Positions 10,463 through 20,837 of a stretch of DNA of 20,837 nt are shown here, in pieces (position 1 is the stretch's first letter; the number at the start of each line of letters is the position of its first letter). The translations under genes and the position numbers were made by a program. The stretch comes from a virus. The notes beneath the pieces are model-generated. The model was not told where the DNA came from. It searched no databases and saw nothing but the letters and a program-made list of their open reading frames with translations. The stretch spans positions 1 to 20,837 of IMG/VR virus record IMGVR_UViG_3300025383_000128. One strand, written 5' to 3'.

Positions 10463-10606
10463 CTAGTTTAACGAAATTACTAATCTTATAATGAATAGTT
10501 CAATTGTCAAATAGTTCTTGTTTTCACCATTTTCAAAAACCTCTGACGAATTGACTAATTCAAATCCTAGACCTACTCCACAAATAGGGTGACAAGTGAT
10601 GTGCAT
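10463..10606 (-). CDS. hypothetical 47-aa protein
   Basis: This small reading frame encodes 47 residues. They begin MHITCHPICGVGLGFELVN and end NYLTIELFIIRLVISLN. The GLGFE...YLTIELFII pattern of alternating hydrophobic strands resembles small phage proteins often found in early operons. It starts within the TAA of the RNR gene (TAATG), so translation is probably coupled. The frame fills the whole interval between the RNR and the 48-aa gene, arguing for real coding. Two Cys and two His lie near the start (H2, C5, H6, C9), but there is no complete zinc site to claim. Function unknown. Confidence 0.6.
   Translation of the reverse strand: MHITCHPICGVGLGFELVNSSEVFENGENKNYLTIELFIIRLVISLN
10483..10510 (-). 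promoter_or_regulatory. possible promoter before the last leftward gene
   Basis: On the - strand TTGACA (10505-10510) and TAAGAT (10483-10488) are 16 nt apart. The -35 is perfect and the -10 matches 4 of 6. It lies inside the 47-aa reading frame, so coding constraint could explain it. If active it would drive only the 48-aa gene. Confidence 0.3.
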
Positions 10607-12486
10607 TATATCTCACATACTCCTGCTACACAGGCTAGGGTCTGTGCTCCCTCTGTATTATCATCCTTCTCTACCAGTTCTTCCCAATTGATATCACCTG
10701 GCATTTTAGATGCTAATTCTTTATATTGCTCTTCTGTTATATCCTCATAAGGAGCTTGTTGATATGTATGGTTTGAATGAGGAAGGAATGAGATTCCTGA
10801 TACTTCATCAAAATGTCTCCATACCCATGCACCTACATCAGGCCATTCACAATCCTTAACAGTGATAGTTACTGAAGGTTTATGTTCACACCAATATCTT
10901 TGATATTCTAACCACAACTTTAATTGCTCTAAGGCAGTCATATCATTTCTAGTGATAGCTCCCTTAGGTGCTTTCATCGGAAACGAGAAAACAGCTGTCG
11001 AATCTGGCCTAAATACTTCATCTTCCACTGGAAAGCCTTTTTCCTTGAGGAACGAGTATACAGGATCCTTTTTATCAATTCGTACCCTTCTAATATAATG
11101 AGCATTGTGTCTAGCATGAATGCCACTAGCACTGTCCACCAACTGGCTGACTGTACCTGAAGGCTTAACACAAGTGATAGAAGCAGAAGGAGCAACACCA
11201 AGTTTTTTAGAAAGTTCTTCGTTTGTTTTTCTCGCTGCATCTCTTAACCTTTCTAACATTCTAGGATCAGGTTTACTTGTTAACTTACAATCCATGATAC
11301 CTGTTAATGAAACTCCTAATAATCTTTCTTCTTCAGTATTCTTTTTCCATTCCTCACTTAGAAATTGGAAGCTGGTGAGAGTGGACTGAATTGTACCGAG
11401 TATTGTAGCGAGGGACACTTTATGAGCCAAGGTAGATTCGGTATCGTCCCCCCGTACAACCACTTCCGTAAGATTGCAGAATTGTTTATCACGGAGGATA
11501 ATTTCTGAGCATGGATTGGTGCCATAGCTGAGAAGCGGATCTCGTCTCCCCCATTTTCCTGCTTGAGCCTGAGAAGCAACACGATTAAAGATTCCTCGTT
11601 CACCTGATTTTGACTTAACCAAAGCGAGCCATTCTTCCATGAAAGTTTCAGAATCGGGTCTTTCGGTGTAGGCCACACTGTTGTTGGCAAGTCCTCGGTA
11701 AGGGTAATCGTTATACCAGGCTCCTGATTTTGCATCTCGCATCCTTTTATCTGTTAAGTTACTCAAAGAGATTAGAGCAGATCGTCTTACACCACCTACT
11801 ACAACAATCTCACCAATCATACACATAATATCGTGTACTTCTAAACTGTTTAGTTTTCTTCCTGCTGATCCTTTAGCCGTGTGTATTGTGAACTCAAACA
11901 ACTTACGCAATGGGTCTGGTCCAGAAGCTCTGCCACCAAAGGTTTTAAGTCTCGCACCAGATGGTCGAACCCGTGAGTAGTCAATCTTAGGAACATCTCC
12001 CTCCCACAAAGAGGACAATAGTTTTTTGAATGCTTTTGCCCATCCGAGTTTAGAGTCTCCAACCACGATGACATCATCTACCTCCTTAAATGTAGCAGGT
12101 AATGGAGGAAGCTTATCAATCTCTTGTCTCTCACAAGAGAATCCTACACCAGTACCATTCATTAAAATATAAAGAGCTTCTGAGAATGCTCTCTTGTTAT
12201 TGATAGCTAGATAAGAACAGTTGTATGCTGATATGTTATCTCTATCACATGCTTCACCTGCGGTCATTAATAGACGCATTGAAGGCATCACTTCTAGATT
12301 CGTAATAGCATCTTGAAGTTGTTTATATGTAGCATCATCTACTTTACCATCTGTTTTAGTCTTTAAATAAGAGATTAAACGTGCAACTGTTTCTTCCCAA
12401 GACTCTCGTCTACCTTGTTCTTCAATATAACGAGCATATCTGCTTTTATGGATAAACTTACTGTAGTTCGTCAATTTCGTAGTCAT
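10606..12486 (-). CDS. class II (adenosylcobalamin-dependent) ribonucleotide reductase, monomeric RTPR type
   Basis: This 626-aa enzyme reduces ribonucleotides to deoxyribonucleotides for phage DNA synthesis. Visible marks are C90 in YNCSYLAINN (first redox Cys), GTGVGFS (111-117), the active-site loop NPCSEI (C326 thiyl-radical Cys, E328) and C337 in FCNLTEV (second redox Cys). The Pro-Ser-Gly-Thr phosphate loop is CVKPSGTVSQL, and the tail C619-VAGV-C624 is the reducing shuttle pair. The absence of any small subunit or activase gene nearby and the similarity to the Lactobacillus RTPR layout point to class II, using vitamin B12 coenzyme. It is shorter than bacterial RTPR (about 740 aa), as is common in phages. 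It overlaps the small gene upstream by 29 nt and the one downstream by TAATG. Confidence 0.9.
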   Translation of the reverse strand: MTTKLTNYSKFIHKSRYARYIEEQGRRESWEETVARLISYLKTKTDGKVDDATYKQLQDAITNLEVMPSMRLLMTAGEACDRDNISAYNCSYLAINNKRAFSEALYILMNGTGVGFSCERQEIDKLPPLPATFKEVDDVIVVGDSKLGWAKAFKKLLSSLWEGDVPKIDYSRVRPSGARLKTFGGRASGPDPLRKLFEFTIHTAKGSAGRKLNSLEVHDIMCMIGEIVVVGGVRRSALISLSNLTDKRMRDAKSGAWYNDYPYRGLANNSVAYTERPDSETFMEEWLALVKSKSGERGIFNRVASQAQAGKWGRRDPLLSYGTNPCSEIILRDKQFCNLTEVVVRGDDTESTLAHKVSLATILGTIQSTLTSFQFLSEEWKKNTEEERLLGVSLTGIMDCKLTSKPDPRMLERLRDAARKTNEELSKKLGVAPSASITCVKPSGTVSQLVDSASGIHARHNAHYIRRVRIDKKDPVYSFLKEKGFPVEDEVFRPDSTAVFSFPMKAPKGAITRNDMTALEQLKLWLEYQRYWCEHKPSVTITVKDCEWPDVGAWVWRHFDEVSGISFLPHSNHTYQQAPYEDITEEQYKELASKMPGDINWEELVEKDDNTEGAQTLACVAGVCEI

Positions 12487-13014: not shown

Positions 13015-13043
13015 ATTATACCATCCTTTTTAAACATTTACAA
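13015..13043 (-). promoter_or_regulatory. sigma70-like promoter before DUF3310 and the RNR cluster
   Basis: On the - strand TTGTAA (13038-13043) and TATAAT (13015-13020) are 17 nt apart with a TGG extension of the -10. The predicted start point falls on or next to the ATG at 13008. It could give independent expression of DUF3310, the two small genes and the RNR. Confidence 0.5.
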
Positions 13044-13776
13044 GCTTTAATGAGCCTTTTTCTTTAAGATTCTTATTATCTCTAAACCAATTACCACAGG
13101 CTCTACATTGATAGCGTTGGTATTTACCAGCAGATGTCAAATTATAGCCTCGTCTTTGGAAGTTCTTAGAAGAACAAGTAGGACAGCATAAGTCAGTACC
13201 TTCAACTAGGTTACGGTTAAGATGATTCTTGATCCATGGCTTAAATCGTTCATACACCTTCTCTAAGAGGATTACATCATTCTTATTGTATTCCTCCATC
13301 AACTTCCATGCTTTTGGAATACCTGCCATACATTGAACCCATAACTCATGACCACTATGTTCTGTTTTCTTACCCAAACCTAATGACTGTGCTACATAGT
13401 CTAGCTTGTTAGATACAAACCTAAATCTACCTTTAGCTACAGTCAATAAGTCAATCTCTTTAAACGGTGCTGGAGGAAACATACCATGTAATAGAAACTC
13501 TTTATTAAGACTTGGTATGTCAAAGCGTTTACCATTGTAGTGTATTACTGCATCAGCTTCGTCTAGAAGCTTATGGATGCCAGCTAACATCTTCTTATCA
13601 CCACTCTTCTTAACAGAGTCAAACATCATCTTCTTATCACCTAGCCATTTAGCGGCATAGCACATAACATAAGATGACTCTTGTAACTGATTGATGCCAA
13701 TGTTCTGATCCCAAATACCCCAAACATGTGCAACATTAGGAGCCATTTCAATATCTAATAATAATATTTTACTCAT
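13030..13776 (-). CDS. 3'-5' exonuclease (RNase H-like, DnaQ/PolB type) with C-terminal zinc ribbon
   Basis: This 248-aa protein has a DEDDy-type exonuclease domain in residues 1-185: D8 and E10 in LLLDIEMAP (ExoI), D86 in YNGKRFDIPSL (ExoII), and Y163/D167 in EEYNKNDVILL (ExoIII). These four acidic residues and the Tyr bind two metal ions in proofreading nucleases. Residues 197-230 form a zinc ribbon: C198-x2-C201 (CPTC) and C224-x2-C227 (CRAC), followed by a basic tail. The ribbon likely grips nucleic acid. It lies between the double dioxygenase and DUF3310 genes. It may trim DNA ends or process recombination intermediates, or supply proofreading to the split polymerase if that lacks its own exonuclease, which cannot be seen here. 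Confidence 0.85.
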   Translation of the reverse strand: MSKILLLDIEMAPNVAHVWGIWDQNIGINQLQESSYVMCYAAKWLGDKKMMFDSVKKSGDKKMLAGIHKLLDEADAVIHYNGKRFDIPSLNKEFLLHGMFPPAPFKEIDLLTVAKGRFRFVSNKLDYVAQSLGLGKKTEHSGHELWVQCMAGIPKAWKLMEEYNKNDVILLEKVYERFKPWIKNHLNRNLVEGTDLCCPTCSSKNFQRRGYNLTSAGKYQRYQCRACGNWFRDNKNLKEKGSLKLVNV

Positions 13777-13784
13777 TCTATCTC

Positions 13785-14939
13785 CTATTTAAAGTATGGA
13801 CCGACCATCCATGTTACTACTGTATATCTCATACCTTTTGTTACGGGTTCTACACCATGAAGCATAAAAGAAGGAAATACAATTATATCACCTTTAGCTT
13901 GTGGTGGGTATATCTTATCATGACCATTCATAATATAAAACTTACCACCTTCAAAGTCATCATTAAGAATAGCTAGTGCTGTAAGCTTACGAGTTTCTGT
14001 TCCATGTTGATGAAATGTATCTACATGAGCTTCGTACTTACCATTGACATCATACATAAGAAACTCTGTTTGATTAGAATGTGTTACATCAAACTTCCAA
14101 AAAGCATGGTTCATATTTAAAGCACAAGACGTTAAAGTAGCACCTATACCTTGGTTCATAGGTAATGGAAGTCTTAATACATTACGAATGTTAAGGTTGA
14201 TATTCTTTTCAGGGTCTCTACCTTCACCAATAAATGGTTGTTCTTTTTCTACTTCAGGTTTAGAATACTCTTCAATTAACTTATCACAGAAAGCATTTGA
14301 TACTGCCTTTTGCATAACATAAGCTACATCTAATTGAGGGTTTTGAGCTACAGGTTCACATATTGTTTTACTGATACCTAATGATTCTCGCTTGTCATAC
14401 TTCCATTCAGCATGAGGACCATCTTGATCTACATAGTGTAAGAATACTTGTGCTTGCCATTTACCTTCAGTATAAGGTTCACGCCAATGGTATTTATCCA
14501 TACCACGATACATTACAGCATCACCAACTTCCATTTTAATCTCAGAAGCACCTGACTTATCTTCTGCATCACCCATATATATAGGCCATACATCACCTTC
14601 AAATCCTAAGGTTAAAGTAGCACTGATTTCACAAGCAGGACGATCACGGTGTACTTTTAATTCTTCACCTTGAGTATCATATAATCTAGCATATGAATAA
14701 GTAGGGAATAAACGTAGGCCACTAGCCTTCTCAAAGTAAGGTGTTAAGTATTCAAGTAGTCTATCAAAGGCTTCAGCACCATGTACTGCTTCAGATAAAG
14801 GACATTGAGGATCATTGACTGTTTTGTTCTCTGCAACAAGTCTTTTAAGTTCTGTAGTAAGTTCTTCACAAGTATGTTTAGGCAAGAAGTCTTTTAGATG
14901 CACATACCCATTGTCTTTAAATAGCTCAACTGTGTTCAT
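13785..14939 (-). CDS. tandem 2-oxoglutarate/Fe(II) dioxygenase (two catalytic domains)
   Basis: This 384-aa protein contains two oxygenase domains in one chain. Domain 1 (about residues 1-175) has H97-R-D99 in KVHRDRP and H151 in YHWREPYTEGKW. Domain 2 (about 195-384) has H305-V-D307 in AHVDTFHQHG and H361 in FMLHGVEPVTKGMRYTVV, with R371 as the probable 2-oxoglutarate-binding Arg. The second domain resembles PKHD/PiuC-type prolyl hydroxylases. Both iron triads look intact. Enzymes of this class couple 2-oxoglutarate decarboxylation to hydroxylation of proteins, nucleic acids or small molecules. The substrate is unknown. It overlaps the DUF1289 gene upstream by 14 nt and precedes the exonuclease gene by 8 nt. 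Confidence 0.8.
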   Translation of the reverse strand: MNTVELFKDNGYVHLKDFLPKHTCEELTTELKRLVAENKTVNDPQCPLSEAVHGAEAFDRLLEYLTPYFEKASGLRLFPTYSYARLYDTQGEELKVHRDRPACEISATLTLGFEGDVWPIYMGDAEDKSGASEIKMEVGDAVMYRGMDKYHWREPYTEGKWQAQVFLHYVDQDGPHAEWKYDKRESLGISKTICEPVAQNPQLDVAYVMQKAVSNAFCDKLIEEYSKPEVEKEQPFIGEGRDPEKNINLNIRNVLRLPLPMNQGIGATLTSCALNMNHAFWKFDVTHSNQTEFLMYDVNGKYEAHVDTFHQHGTETRKLTALAILNDDFEGGKFYIMNGHDKIYPPQAKGDIIVFPSFMLHGVEPVTKGMRYTVVTWMVGPYFK

Positions 14940-15349: not shown

Positions 15350-15543
15350 GCTTTAATAAATTCCTCATCTGGTATCTGACTTAATAGATCCATCTCTGCT
15401 TCTTTATTCTGTCTAATTATTGCTATAGTTCCTACAAGATAGTCAAGTGCAATGTTTACAAAGAAATTAGCCTCTTCTTCATTAACTTCCAGTACAAGAT
15501 CAAACTTGTCGCTTTCTACTTTTTTTAGGCTTTTTACTTGCAC
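15346..15543 (-). CDS. hypothetical 65-aa protein (GTG start)
   Basis: This 65-residue acidic protein has MQVKSLKKVESDKFDLVLEV, then NEEEANFFVNIALDYLVGTI, then a charged tail. It begins with GTG; no in-frame ATG lies early enough for a sensible product. An AGAG element is upstream. It overlaps the end of the HNH endonuclease gene by 44 nt and the next gene by ATGA. The pattern EEANFFVNIALDYLVGTIAI resembles small phage proteins of unknown role with a beta strand and an amphipathic helix. Function unknown. Confidence 0.6.
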   Translation of the reverse strand: MQVKSLKKVESDKFDLVLEVNEEEANFFVNIALDYLVGTIAIIRQNKEAEMDLLSQIPDEEFIKA

Positions 15544-15892
15544 TAGTTCTCTCTTTCTTTTCTGTTAATGTTTTTGACGAGTGACACGTTTTGCAGAGGA
15601 CTTGTAAATTTTCTTTATCGCAATAGAGCCTGTCGATGAAAACATCCCAGGTCTTAAATCCTTGCTTAGAGTCCACCACAGGTTCAATATGGTCAACTTG
15701 AACTTCCTTAGCAGGGAAGTCTTCTTTACAGAGATTGCATGTGTAGTGCATTGCAATTCGTTTAGTTTTAACATTTTCTTTCTTTCCCGCTTGTGCTTCT
15801 TTGAGTGTTTCATACTTGGGAGGCCACCTCCGATAGCCACTTCTTAATACAGATGTTATAAATGATTTCTTACGTCCTTCAGTCCAGTCCAT
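15500..15892 (-). CDS. HNH endonuclease
   Basis: This 130-aa protein has a standard HNH nuclease core: C52-x2-C55 (YTCNLC), VQVDHIEPVVD with H68, then LYCDKENLQVLCKTCHSSKT with N95, C100, C103 and H104. The two CxxC pairs hold zinc and the H-N-H triad binds the catalytic metal. The tail is very basic and should bind DNA. The N-terminus (WTEGRKKSFITSVLRSGYRRWPP) is typical of phage HNH proteins next to replication genes. Such proteins act in packaging, in homing or as free-standing nucleases. It begins in the stop of the gene before it (TAATG). Confidence 0.85.
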   Translation of the reverse strand: MDWTEGRKKSFITSVLRSGYRRWPPKYETLKEAQAGKKENVKTKRIAMHYTCNLCKEDFPAKEVQVDHIEPVVDSKQGFKTWDVFIDRLYCDKENLQVLCKTCHSSKTLTEKKERTSASKKPKKSRKRQV

Positions 15893-16107: not shown

Positions 16108-16361
16108 TATTTACCCTCCACAATGAAGGTACCTGATACTCTAACATTAGTACCTTGTTTATCTACAAAGGCAGCTACGGGTCCATTGTATTCAATTAAG
16201 TTTGTAGTATTCCATGTTTTAATAACATGACCATCATTAGCATATAGTGTAACAGTTCTATCTAATAAACCTGTACTAGATTTAACATCATTTACTACAT
16301 TGTCTACTTCACCACAGCCTGCTAATAATAAAACTGATATAAATAATAATACTTTATTCAT
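16107..16361 (-). CDS. phage-encoded lipoprotein
   Basis: This 84-aa protein starts MNKVLLFISVLLLAGCGEVD: a short basic n-region, a hydrophobic core and the lipobox LAGC with C16 as the acylation site. Gly follows the cysteine, with no Asp at +2, so in a Gram-negative host it would probably be sorted to the outer membrane. The mature 69 residues form a small beta-rich domain (RTVTLYANDGHVIKTWNTT ... VSGTFIVEG in part). In other phages small lipoproteins block superinfection (T5 Llp is the known case) or act in lysis as spanin subunits. Its place in the early/replication arm favours the former, but this is inference. It overlaps the exonuclease gene by 8 nt. Confidence 0.75.
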   Translation of the reverse strand: MNKVLLFISVLLLAGCGEVDNVVNDVKSSTGLLDRTVTLYANDGHVIKTWNTTNLIEYNGPVAAFVDKQGTNVRVSGTFIVEGK

Positions 16362-17025
16362 TTAGTAACCTTTCATAATGTTTAGTCCAGTCATCATCTA
16401 GACTTCTTAAAATCCATAGACAACGGCCATTCATTAATAGCCAATCATCATTGTTATACTTCTCACGAACTACATCAAACATCTCTTTTTCTGTTTCACA
16501 GAACATAAGAGCTTTATTAGCTTTTACAGGACCAATACCCTCAATACCTTTAATATGGTCTGAACTATCTCCTGTTAGAAGCTGTGCATAGAATCTTCGT
16601 AGTCCCTCAATCTCTTCAATTGTGTGAAACTCTTTTTTAACAAAATTGTAGTGTTTGCCTCTAACTTGAAGCAAATCCTTATCAATAGAACATATAATAG
16701 AATCATCAGTTTGATGAATGGCAAGGTAATCATCCGCTTCCATCCCATCAGCTTCCACTGCACTCCAGTCATTGATTAAATAATCCTTTAAAAATGTTAA
16801 ATGTTTAGGAGGAGGTGTTTTGCGATTAGCTTTATATTCAGGATAAATCTTTTTACGGAAGTTATCTTTAGATGTTAAGAATATTTTATACTCATCAGCA
16901 TCTACCTCAGCCAAACATTGTTCTATCATTTCATTGATACGATAGATAGCAATTCCATCAGGATCATTCTCAGTAGTACAAGCTACTCGGAATGCAAATA
17001 TATCACCATCTAATAACGCTATCAT
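16354..17025 (-). CDS. 5'-3' exonuclease (FEN / T7 gp6 type)
   Basis: This 223-aa protein has the flap nuclease layout. D6 and D8 stand in LLDGDIF. The arch/basic region FRKKIYPEYKANRK (56-69) binds the 5' strand. EADGMEADDYLA holds E91, E96, D98 and D99. SIDKDLLQ holds D115 and D117. The helix-hairpin-helix is LLTGDSSDHIKGIEGIGPVKA with D153 and D156. The enzyme removes RNA primers and recesses 5' ends during replication and recombination, and also degrades host DNA in T7. It is separate from the polymerase, as in T7. It overlaps the lipoprotein by 8 nt and the membrane protein upstream by ATGA. Confidence 0.88.
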   Translation of the reverse strand: MIALLDGDIFAFRVACTTENDPDGIAIYRINEMIEQCLAEVDADEYKIFLTSKDNFRKKIYPEYKANRKTPPPKHLTFLKDYLINDWSAVEADGMEADDYLAIHQTDDSIICSIDKDLLQVRGKHYNFVKKEFHTIEEIEGLRRFYAQLLTGDSSDHIKGIEGIGPVKANKALMFCETEKEMFDVVREKYNNDDWLLMNGRCLWILRSLDDDWTKHYERLLNE

Positions 17026-19027: not shown

Positions 19028-19243
19028 TTAGGTTGTTTTATTTTGTTTCTCCACTTTTGCTATTTTCTTTCTGAGCCAAAGATAATCAGACATTGCGTCG
19101 CCTTTACCTTTGTCATACCAATCTAAAGCTTGTTTACTAAATAGTTTTCTTACAATCCAAGGTAAACTTGCATGAAATTGCAACATACTTAATTCAAGCT
19201 TTCCTTCTATTAGATTCATTTTTTGTTTTCTAGTGAGTTTCAT
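19028..19243 (-). CDS. hypothetical 71-aa protein
   Basis: This 71-residue basic protein begins MKLTRKQKMNLIEGKLELSM and includes QFHASLPWIVRKLFSKQALD. The last third is Lys-rich. It overlaps the end of the polymerase C-part by 14 nt and precedes the 78-aa gene by 21 nt. It looks soluble and helical. No family is recognised. Confidence 0.6.
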   Translation of the reverse strand: MKLTRKQKMNLIEGKLELSMLQFHASLPWIVRKLFSKQALDWYDKGKGDAMSDYLWLRKKIAKVEKQNKTT

Positions 19244-19952
19244 TCCAAACCTCCATATCTTTCCAGTTTTTACCTACTTGTACTTCTGCTTTCATTGGAA
19301 GGTTAAATTCCGTTCCAAATAGCTTAGCAAAGTTCTTAGGTACATCTTCAAATACATCTAACATCATCTTAGCTAAAGTATCAGTATGGCTATCGTCACA
19401 ATCAATGATAATACTATCATGAACCGTATTGACAAGTTTTGCATTTTCATATCCTAGTTTCCTCATTCTATTGTGTAACGATACTCTAGCTATAGTCATT
19501 AAATCTGCACCTAATCCTTGTACAGGGTAGTTGAGGATTGTGGTACGAGGCCACACTTTCTCGCCTCGTCTATCCTCGGACTTATACTGATAGATTCTCC
19601 CCGTGGGTAATTTGACCATTCCTGTCGTTGTTGCTTCTTGCATAAGTTTCGTATGCCACTTATGTAAACCTTTATACTTTGCATAAAATTCATCTATTAC
19701 TCCTTGCCAAAATTTCTCTGATTTACTTACGTCTGCAAAGTTAGCATCATGAGCATAGGAGTAAGCTGACCCTCCGTAAATGAGACGAAATACAAATGTT
19801 TTAGCAATAAGACGGCTAGGCAAACCAAAGCGATTCTGATTATCAGTGTGTTGATCGACATTATTTTTAATCTCCTCTAATGCAACTGGATCTTGACTCA
19901 AGAAGGCAGCACATCGCCATTCGAGAGCCGAAGCATCTCCCTGAATAAGCAT
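19230..19952 (-). CDS. DNA polymerase A, C-terminal part (palm/fingers with motifs A, B, C)
   Basis: This 240-aa protein holds all three polymerase motifs of family A. Motif A is LIQGDASALEWR (D6, E11). Motif B is RLIAKTFVFRLIYGG, with R47, K51, F55 and Y59; F55 corresponds to position 762 of E. coli Pol I. LNYPVQGLGADLMTIA provides the conserved Gln region. Motif C is VHDSIIID (H178, D179; the usual Glu is Ser180). PMKAEVQVGKNW closes the domain. The thumb and the strand before motif A lie in the separate upstream gene at 20375. The ATG at 19952 overlaps the stop of the 60-aa gene as TAATG. The two products must associate, or the RNA be joined, for activity. Confidence 0.85.
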   Translation of the reverse strand: MLIQGDASALEWRCAAFLSQDPVALEEIKNNVDQHTDNQNRFGLPSRLIAKTFVFRLIYGGSAYSYAHDANFADVSKSEKFWQGVIDEFYAKYKGLHKWHTKLMQEATTTGMVKLPTGRIYQYKSEDRRGEKVWPRTTILNYPVQGLGADLMTIARVSLHNRMRKLGYENAKLVNTVHDSIIIDCDDSHTDTLAKMMLDVFEDVPKNFAKLFGTEFNLPMKAEVQVGKNWKDMEVWNETH

Positions 19953-20134
19953 TACTGAAAGTACTCCACCATAGTTATTTGAGTTTCTTTATCTAAATCT
20001 TTAAAGACATTATCAAAACCAAATGCTTTAACTAATGATTCAAACTCTGTTATTGTATGAAAGTAGTAAGCTTCTTCTTGATCTTGTTGTTCTTGTTCAT
20101 AATACTCTTCTGTTGTTAAGTCATCATCATACAT
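19952..20134 (-). CDS. acidic 60-aa protein inside the polymerase split
   Basis: This 60-residue acidic protein starts MYDDDLTTEEYYEQEQQDQE and continues TEFESLVKAFGFDNVFKDLD before a helical end. The first 20 residues are nearly all Asp, Glu, Gln or Tyr. AAGGAG stands 9 nt before the ATG. It overlaps the 79-aa gene by 8 nt and the polymerase C-part by one base (TAATG). No domain is recognised and it has no homing-endonuclease motif. Its interest is its position. Confidence 0.6.
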   Translation of the reverse strand: MYDDDLTTEEYYEQEQQDQEEAYYFHTITEFESLVKAFGFDNVFKDLDKETQITMVEYFQ

Positions 20135-20366
20135 AGTTTTCTTCTCCTTTATATAAATCTTGTCTCATTCTTTCTTTTGCTGTTAAAAATCCTGCTACAA
20201 ATCCTCTTCTTAAATCAGTTTCCCACCCACTTATACCTTCAGATGCTTCTAAAATTTCTTTTCCCCATTCTTTACCCCATACATAATTTACCCAAAGTTT
20301 AAATGCTTCAGGAGCATCTTCTTCATTTCTAGACCATCCTCCAACTTTAGTCTTTTTAAGTTTCAT
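20127..20366 (-). CDS. hypothetical 79-aa protein inside the polymerase split
   Basis: This 79-residue protein begins MKLKKTKVGGWSRNEEDAPE and includes FKLWVNYVWGKEWGKEIL and LRRGFVAGFLTAKERMRQD. The GFVAGF-x-x-AKER pattern resembles the VAGYKLGRDNA segment of the 133-aa protein at 18372, suggesting a common small phage fold. An AGGAG site is 5 nt before the ATG and overlaps the stop codon of the polymerase N-part. It is not a LAGLIDADG, HNH or GIY-YIG nuclease. Function unknown. Confidence 0.6.
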   Translation of the reverse strand: MKLKKTKVGGWSRNEEDAPEAFKLWVNYVWGKEWGKEILEASEGISGWETDLRRGFVAGFLTAKERMRQDLYKGEENYV

Positions 20367-20374
20367 ACTATCTC

Positions 20375-20837
20375 CTAATATCTAGAATAAAATAACTCTT
20401 TTATCTCTGAGTCGAAGTTTTGTAAATTCGGTTTCGAGGAAGATAGACGACCTGTTCTAGCGACACATTGATTGAGTTGACCGTGTAGTCTGCCTTGAAT
20501 CCAACCTTGAGTAACTCGTAACTCGGGGAGTCCTGTATAGTAAGTGCCTTTACGCTTTTCCAAGACATTCCGTTCAAGTATGAGCTTAATAATTTCTTTA
20601 CTCTCCTTTGTACCCTTGAGACTTCTGAGAGTTTGTTCATCTGTACTAAAGTATCCATCTTTCTTTAACTCACTTCCTTTTAATGGTTCTATTAATCTAG
20701 GCATATCATAATTATAATCTACCCAACCTTCTTTGTCAAGTCCTTTACGATCACCTGTTTTAAATACCCCAATGATTTCTTTTTTAGGTATTGTAACCCG
20801 TCCACCATAGAGTAGACAGCTAAGATGATCTTTACTA
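20375..20837 (-). CDS. DNA polymerase A, N-terminal part (incomplete at the window edge)
   Basis: The reading frame is open to the window edge, so the gene starts beyond 20837; the ATG at 20704 is internal. Visible family A features, in order, are HLSCLLYGGRV, then KTGDRKGLDKEG, ELKKDGYFSTDEQTL, and GRLHGQLNQCVARTGRLSSS followed by KPNLQNF, which is the thumb and the TGRLSS-x-PNLQN block that precedes motif A. The protein then ends with IKELFYSRY and a TAG stop. In an unbroken polymerase the next segment is motif A, which here starts a second gene at 19952. AGGAG for the next small gene overlaps the TAG. The 3'-5' exonuclease part cannot be seen. Confidence 0.85.
   Translation of the reverse strand, partial: SKDHLSCLLYGGRVTIPKKEIIGVFKTGDRKGLDKEGWVDYNYDMPRLIEPLKGSELKKDGYFSTDEQTLRSLKGTKESKEIIKLILERNVLEKRKGTYYTGLPELRVTQGWIQGRLHGQLNQCVARTGRLSSSKPNLQNFDSEIKELFYSRY
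20711..20739 (-). promoter_or_regulatory. perfect sigma70 consensus inside the polymerase N-part
   Basis: On the - strand TTGACA (20734-20739) and TATAAT (20711-20716) are 17 nt apart, a complete consensus match. It lies within coding sequence, reading Leu-Asp-Lys ... Asp-Tyr-Asn. The expected start point coincides with the in-frame ATG at 20704. If active it would drive a leaderless message for a truncated polymerase N-part and the genes behind it. Confidence 0.45.

Follow-up and report, generated by a model that had tools for sequence, protein, structure and literature searches.

A family A DNA polymerase split directly before motif A across a lineage of MEP401-type phages, very probably working as a two-chain enzyme

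The DNA polymerase (DNAP) of phages MEP401 and MEP402 is encoded in two ORFs with a small ORF of unassigned function between them; split DNAPs were found in most group I genomes, and an intron was suggested as a possible cause (PMC10580990, Microbiol Spectr 2023). In T4-like phages, the gp43A and gp43B genes of Aeromonas phages 25 and 44RR are separated by a homing endonuclease or by an untranslated stretch, and the two chains of phage 25 co-purify and are active (PMC2988022). The NrdA protein of Aeromonas phage Aeh1, split by insertion of the HNH endonuclease gene mobE, likewise still works as two chains (PMC2988022).

We have studied a polymerase locus at one end of a viral metagenomic record, IMG/VR IMGVR_UViG_3300025383_000128; the complete stretch of 20,837 nt that was analysed is referred to as the window. 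At the window's end, an operon on the minus strand has two small genes enclosed by two pieces of a family A DNA polymerase (Table 1). The initial annotation had proposed, from the letters alone, that this polymerase is split just before motif A, and the coordinates, lengths and motifs were confirmed. The N-half is visible over 153 aa, its 5′ part lying beyond the window end, and terminates in ...TGRLSSSKPNLQNFDSEIKELFYSRY followed by the stop codon, while the C-half (240 aa) starts with MLIQGDASALEWR. The gap between them (19953-20374; 422 nt) is occupied by ORF79 (79 aa) and ORF60 (60 aa), and the stop codon of ORF60 overlaps the start codon of the C-half by 1 nt. Shine-Dalgarno-like sites occur upstream of ORF79, ORF60 and the C-half, as the initial annotation had stated for the two gap genes.

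Residues 55-143 of the N-half correspond to positions 49-133 of the Pfam DNA_pol_A profile (PF00476) and residues 2-232 of the C-half to positions 154-381. The two genes cover the profile in order, and much of the stretch of about 20 profile positions between the two matches is accounted for by the EIKELFYSRY tail of the N-half. Compared with the unsplit polymerase of HMO-2011 (SRFDGGKVMEADFAQLE; ...VSRFDGGKVMEADFAQLE), the split pair misses about three loop residues, in keeping with the earlier claim that little or nothing was lost. The break falls after the TGRLSSSxPNLQN...SRY segment and before the motif A strand, such that the N-half comprises the 3′-5′ exonuclease, the thumb and the start of the palm, and the C-half the motif A strand, the fingers, and motifs B and C. 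The usual definition of a family A DNA polymerase as one continuous polypeptide does not hold for the window polymerase.

Table 1. Features of the split polymerase locus (window coordinates).
Feature	Position	Strand	Evidence or conservation
N-half, family A DNA polymerase	20375..20836	-	Pfam DNA_pol_A, 3.8e-18
TGRLSSSKPNLQN motif, palm segment upstream of motif A	20417..20455	-	conserved
ORF79, gap gene without detectable relatives	20127..20366	-	phmmer
ORF60, small acidic protein of a gap-only family, homologue of MEP402 gp14	19952..20134	-	profile searches
GGAG, Shine-Dalgarno-like, upstream of the C-half start codon, within ORF60	19964..19967	-	
C-half, family A DNA polymerase	19230..19952	-	Pfam DNA_pol_A, 2.1e-31
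Motif A, GDASALEWR (catalytic Asp = C-half residue 6)	19914..19940	-	D6, E11 invariant in 20 homologues
Motif B, R-LIA-K-TFV-F-RLI-YG (O helix)	19773..19814	-	R47, K51, F55, Y59, G60 invariant in 20 homologues
Motif C, VHDS	19413..19424	-	V177, H178, D179, S180 invariant in 20 homologues

The window shares the hallmark of the MEP401 type, i.e., a DNAP in two ORFs, the N-terminal one containing the exonuclease and the start of Pol A, the C-terminal one the remainder, with a small ORF between them. Genes found downstream in MEP401-type phages occur on the same strand of the window: a 5′-3′ exonuclease (16354-17025), an HNH gene (15500-15892) and a ribonucleotide reductase, RNR (10606-12486). The same operon includes a separate RNase H-like 3′-5′ exonuclease related to the exonuclease domain of PolB (13030-13776, minus strand), and the replication region also encodes a 384-aa 2-oxoglutarate/Fe(II) oxygenase-like protein (13785-14939, minus strand).

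The initial annotation had suggested a search for the same break in related contigs. We assembled MEP401-type sequences from IMG/VR scans (using the C-half as query as well as two alignments) and from a phage collection. In all 132 distinct sequences that show both halves, the polymerase is split at the same place, and the two halves stay together at every such locus. Two isolates, MEP402 (gp13/gp15) and Alcaligenes phage QDWS535, are in this set, as are the complete genomes MW202796 and MW202697. Further scans of viral contigs contributed little, with no loci for the QDWS535 protein, none for that of ICP2 and five for that of VpV262. A scan of genome contigs yielded one more split copy, on a contig derived from a metagenome-assembled genome (MAG), and four distant unsplit copies. 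The split copy (L232; JAGWGB010000025.1) has an ORF60-like gap gene, and the MAG is labelled Thaumarchaeota; it is more likely a phage contig that was binned with a Thaumarchaeota MAG.

Unbroken polymerases, which the initial annotation had considered as evidence against a split, were absent among the MEP-type relatives; the unsplit homologues seen are more distant, i.e., of the VpV262 and HMO-2011 types, and others. In the phylogenetic tree, the unsplit sequences are on one side and every split sequence is on the other, albeit with very long outgroup branches, and one change is therefore sufficient to account for the distribution. The window groups with L076 (same contig as L001) inside the MEP401-type lineage. 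The other possibility raised at the outset, a complete polymerase elsewhere in the genome, was addressed with the complete relatives: searches with PF00476 and PF00136 detected no family A or B polymerase beyond the two DNA_pol_A halves in MEP402, MW202796, MW202697 and QDWS535. By analogy, the window's own phage, the record of which is incomplete at 20.8 kb, presumably lacks a second polymerase too. Judged by these sequence comparisons, the split is evidently an inherited, old and stable trait of a large phage lineage.

Both halves are under purifying selection, with dN/dS values (11 pairs) of 0.10-0.24 for the N-halves and 0.05-0.16 for the C-halves, and the N-half distances are correlated with the C-half distances (r = 0.91; 70 genomes). 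In addition to the invariant C-half residues in Table 1, the positions T360-S365, P368, N369, Q371 and N372 of the TGRLSS..PNLQN segment are invariant in 17 N-half homologues. In family A enzymes, the palm and thumb residues of this segment contact primer and template. The exonuclease DEDD residues D7, E9, D73 and D151, together with Y147, are invariant in 17 full-length N-halves; these were scored in relatives, the corresponding part of the window's N-half being located beyond the window end. L001:4114-5274 (387 aa) served as the full-length N-half homologue.

Structure models were generated with AF2 for single chains only, using the L001 homologue for the N-half. The C-half model (mean pLDDT 93) aligns with residues 648-876 of Bst polymerase (Z 24.0, rmsd 2.0, 217 residues aligned), and the N-half model (pLDDT 85) with residues 313-650 (Z about 16, rmsd about 4.8). 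Profile searches with either half matched the same Bst chains. Since the two chains tile the Bst polymerase, the active site would have to be shared between them. In the N-half model, pLDDT drops below 50 over the palm segment (residues 353-367), as would be expected if this segment needs its C-half partner.

We consider it very probable that the two genes specify a single replicative family A DNA polymerase, stably split into two chains, because the whole clade shares the break, purifying selection acts on both halves, the catalytic residues are invariant and the complete relatives lack a further polymerase of family A or B. In such an enzyme, the N-chain would supply the 3′-5′ exonuclease, the thumb and the beginning of the palm with TGRLSS..PNLQN, and the C-chain, beginning at the motif A strand, would supply the fingers, motif C and the two catalytic aspartates. 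Translation would start at a separate ribosome site for each chain, and the chains would co-fold to build the active site jointly.

The size of the gap varies from an overlap of 17 nt to 876 nt, with an extreme of 3.6 kb in MW202796, where the gap harbours a C-5 cytosine DNA methylase gene and a stomatin-like gene (L060:1400-5000). It does not exceed 150 nt in 40 of the 132 sequences: in 24 of these, the genes overlap or abut without a gap, and the other 16 have 1-150 nt. In the overlapping types, a GGAG is present inside the N-half directly before the C-half start codon. Amongst 51 distinct start contexts, the C-half start is offset from the N-half stop in all three frames (23/15/13). Short genes fill most of the gaps in the relatives. 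Neither ORF79 nor ORF60 belongs to a significant Pfam or PHROG family, but their distributions differ from each other. ORF60 homologues are present in 84 of the 132 sequences, all of them amongst the 92 with a gap larger than 150 nt, and missing from sequences with a short gap or none; the family thus looks ancestral but dispensable. We have found it nowhere outside the polymerase gap in the fetched loci. A profile built from close relatives of the window detects the MEP-type gap gene at 1e-7; in the opposite direction, L001 is recovered at 5e-6 and the window's ORF60 at 1.5e-4. The ORF79 protein, used as a phmmer query against all fetched loci, returned only itself. The initial description of two unrelated genes in the gap had to be revised in that ORF60 is not incidental, its family being conserved in the gap lineage-wide. 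A second recurrent family of gap genes occurs in L001, L134 and L020. In L047/L048, a winged helix-turn-helix gene (PF14090) adjoins the ORF60-family gene. Small genes would enter and leave the gap over time, with the ORF60 family being inherited there. That ORF60 is a dedicated third polymerase subunit, bridging or regulating the broken palm, is an idea we regard as unlikely; if true, the replicase would be a three-component family A enzyme.

These data bear on other explanations of the locus. The halves could act apart, without stable assembly, the N-chain as an exonuclease alone and the C-chain as a minimal polymerase, and indeed the C-half model folds confidently by itself and the N-half exonuclease domain looks complete, its nearest folds including NrnC and RNase D. 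This is nevertheless quite unlikely, given that the N-half retains the invariant thumb and palm residues of TGRLSS..PNLQN, pointless for a lone exonuclease, and that the two genes have remained together wherever both are visible. A decaying pseudogene or an assembly error has next to no probability: the window record is metagenomic and cut inside the N-half, and an extra early stop is present in one relative, but the break is shared by 132 distinct sequences, the sequenced isolates MEP402 and QDWS535 among them, and the low dN/dS values (0.05-0.24 over both halves) and invariant catalytic residues refute decay for the lineage. The early stop in question, a TAG ahead of the TGRLSS segment in the N-half of L018 and L095 (same contig), is possibly itself an assembly error or a recent pseudogene.

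There is very little to be said for an intron interrupting the polymerase gene, as raised in PMC10580990. Group I introns are frequent in phage polA genes and the one in Xanthomonas phage phiL7 sits near the break position, but there is no room for an intron in the 40 sequences with gaps of up to 150 nt, let alone in the 24 without any, and the gaps are mostly taken up by short genes. Rfam had no match in the window, L001, L029, MEP402, MW202796 or QDWS535 while detecting the phiL7 intron at 7e-6, and in the window no intron match, hence no group I catalytic core in the gap, was obtained at E values up to 5; with this positive control and the many zero-length gaps, we rejected the intron. A single fused product, made by programmed frameshifting, stop codon readthrough or ribosome bypassing, is slightly less probable still. 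The two frames do meet within a few codons in the overlapping members, and T4 gene 60, the split of which is linked to mobA insertion, provides a precedent for bypassing; against this, the relative frame varies between lineages over all three offsets, and the gaps contain complete genes with their own starts. We also rejected a split intein of the DnaE kind: in both halves, at most about 20 residues extend beyond the polymerase homology, which leaves no room for intein halves.

As for the origin of the two-chain polymerase, relatives and other phages carry homing elements near the break. The initial annotation described the gap genes as non-nuclease, which is true for the window, where a homing endonuclease gene is absent from the break, but not for its relative L029/L113 (same contig), in which the same gap contains an Endonuclease_7 (HNH) gene (2.5e-19). 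Directly after this gene, the first ~150 codons of the L029 C-half are 53-74% identical with those of L027, whereas identity is mostly 97-100% over the N-half (lowest windows 92 and 83%) and 98-100% over what remains of the C-half. The mosaic tract in L029 (3829-4921), i.e., the endonuclease gene with the adjoining start of the C-half, imported as compared to L027, looks like the result of homing with co-conversion. In phiL7, the polymerase is interrupted directly after TGRLSSSDPNL by a group I intron (Rfam RF00028, 7.1e-6) that carries an HNH gene. In ICP2-type vibriophages, the polymerase is split ~13 residues upstream of the MEP-type break, and in ICP2 itself the gap contains an HNH-like gene (L066:41308-41796), across which the database record joins the polymerase CDS; no Rfam intron match was obtained there. 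The same N-half stop and a 9-nt gap in sister phages suggest that ICP2, too, has two separate genes rather than an intron. From the cases of L029, phiL7 and ICP2, it follows that the stretch between PNLQN and motif A is a repeated target for mobile elements. The MEP-type split would most simply descend from a mobile-element insertion: we infer, with moderate confidence, that a homing endonuclease or a group I intron inserted into this hot spot, and that the splicing or the endonuclease was later lost while separate translation starts became fixed. Our best reading of the sequences is an obligate two-chain polymerase that probably arose by insertion of a homing element.

If the chains do assemble, this would be a natural family A polymerase cut directly before motif A with an active site shared between chains, and it would offer a ready-made scaffold for split-polymerase tools. 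The proposed origin, if true, would make it a clear example of a gene fission that a homing element left behind for good and that is inherited lineage-wide. For the annotation of viromes, the split means that reads with only the C-half or only the N-half can represent complete genes rather than fragments.

The window polymerase resembles gp43A/43B in being a phage replicative polymerase in two chains, for which assembly was shown in the T4-like case and is expected here. It differs from that family B enzyme in belonging to family A, with an unrelated fold and break position. To our knowledge, no split family A polymerase has been biochemically characterised. The split NrdA of Aeh1 concerns another enzyme, essential in nucleotide metabolism, in which the nuclease is still present, unlike in the window's gap. 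The interruption in phiL7, near the MEP-type break, differs by its group I intron signal, hence its exons are likely joined. Closer in kind is Icepovirus (the ICP2 group), likewise with a family A polymerase in two reading frames (PNLQNISN-stop / MSDIKRC; one joined CDS in the ICP2 record), the gap being empty (9 nt; Haiti isolate), or filled by a small gene (VP41s3) or the HNH-like gene (ICP2). With their breaks ~13 residues apart, the ICP2-type and MEP-type splits may be independent; we found no paper describing the ICP2 polymerase split as such.

The window polymerase belongs to the split kind of the MEP401/MEP402-type OM43 phages (Zobellviridae; ORF13/ORF15), where the break, the N- and C-terminal domain content and a small gene between the halves are as in the window, except that a single gene was reported there and the window has ORF79 in addition. 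The expectation that a family A enzyme cut in the palm would be unusual is weakened by the 2023 report on MEP401/402 (PMC10580990). What is new with respect to that report is the evidence against an intron, the clade-wide series of gaps and the gap-only ORF60 family, as well as the HNH gene of L029 with its co-conversion-like tract and the similar split of the ICP2 type slightly upstream.
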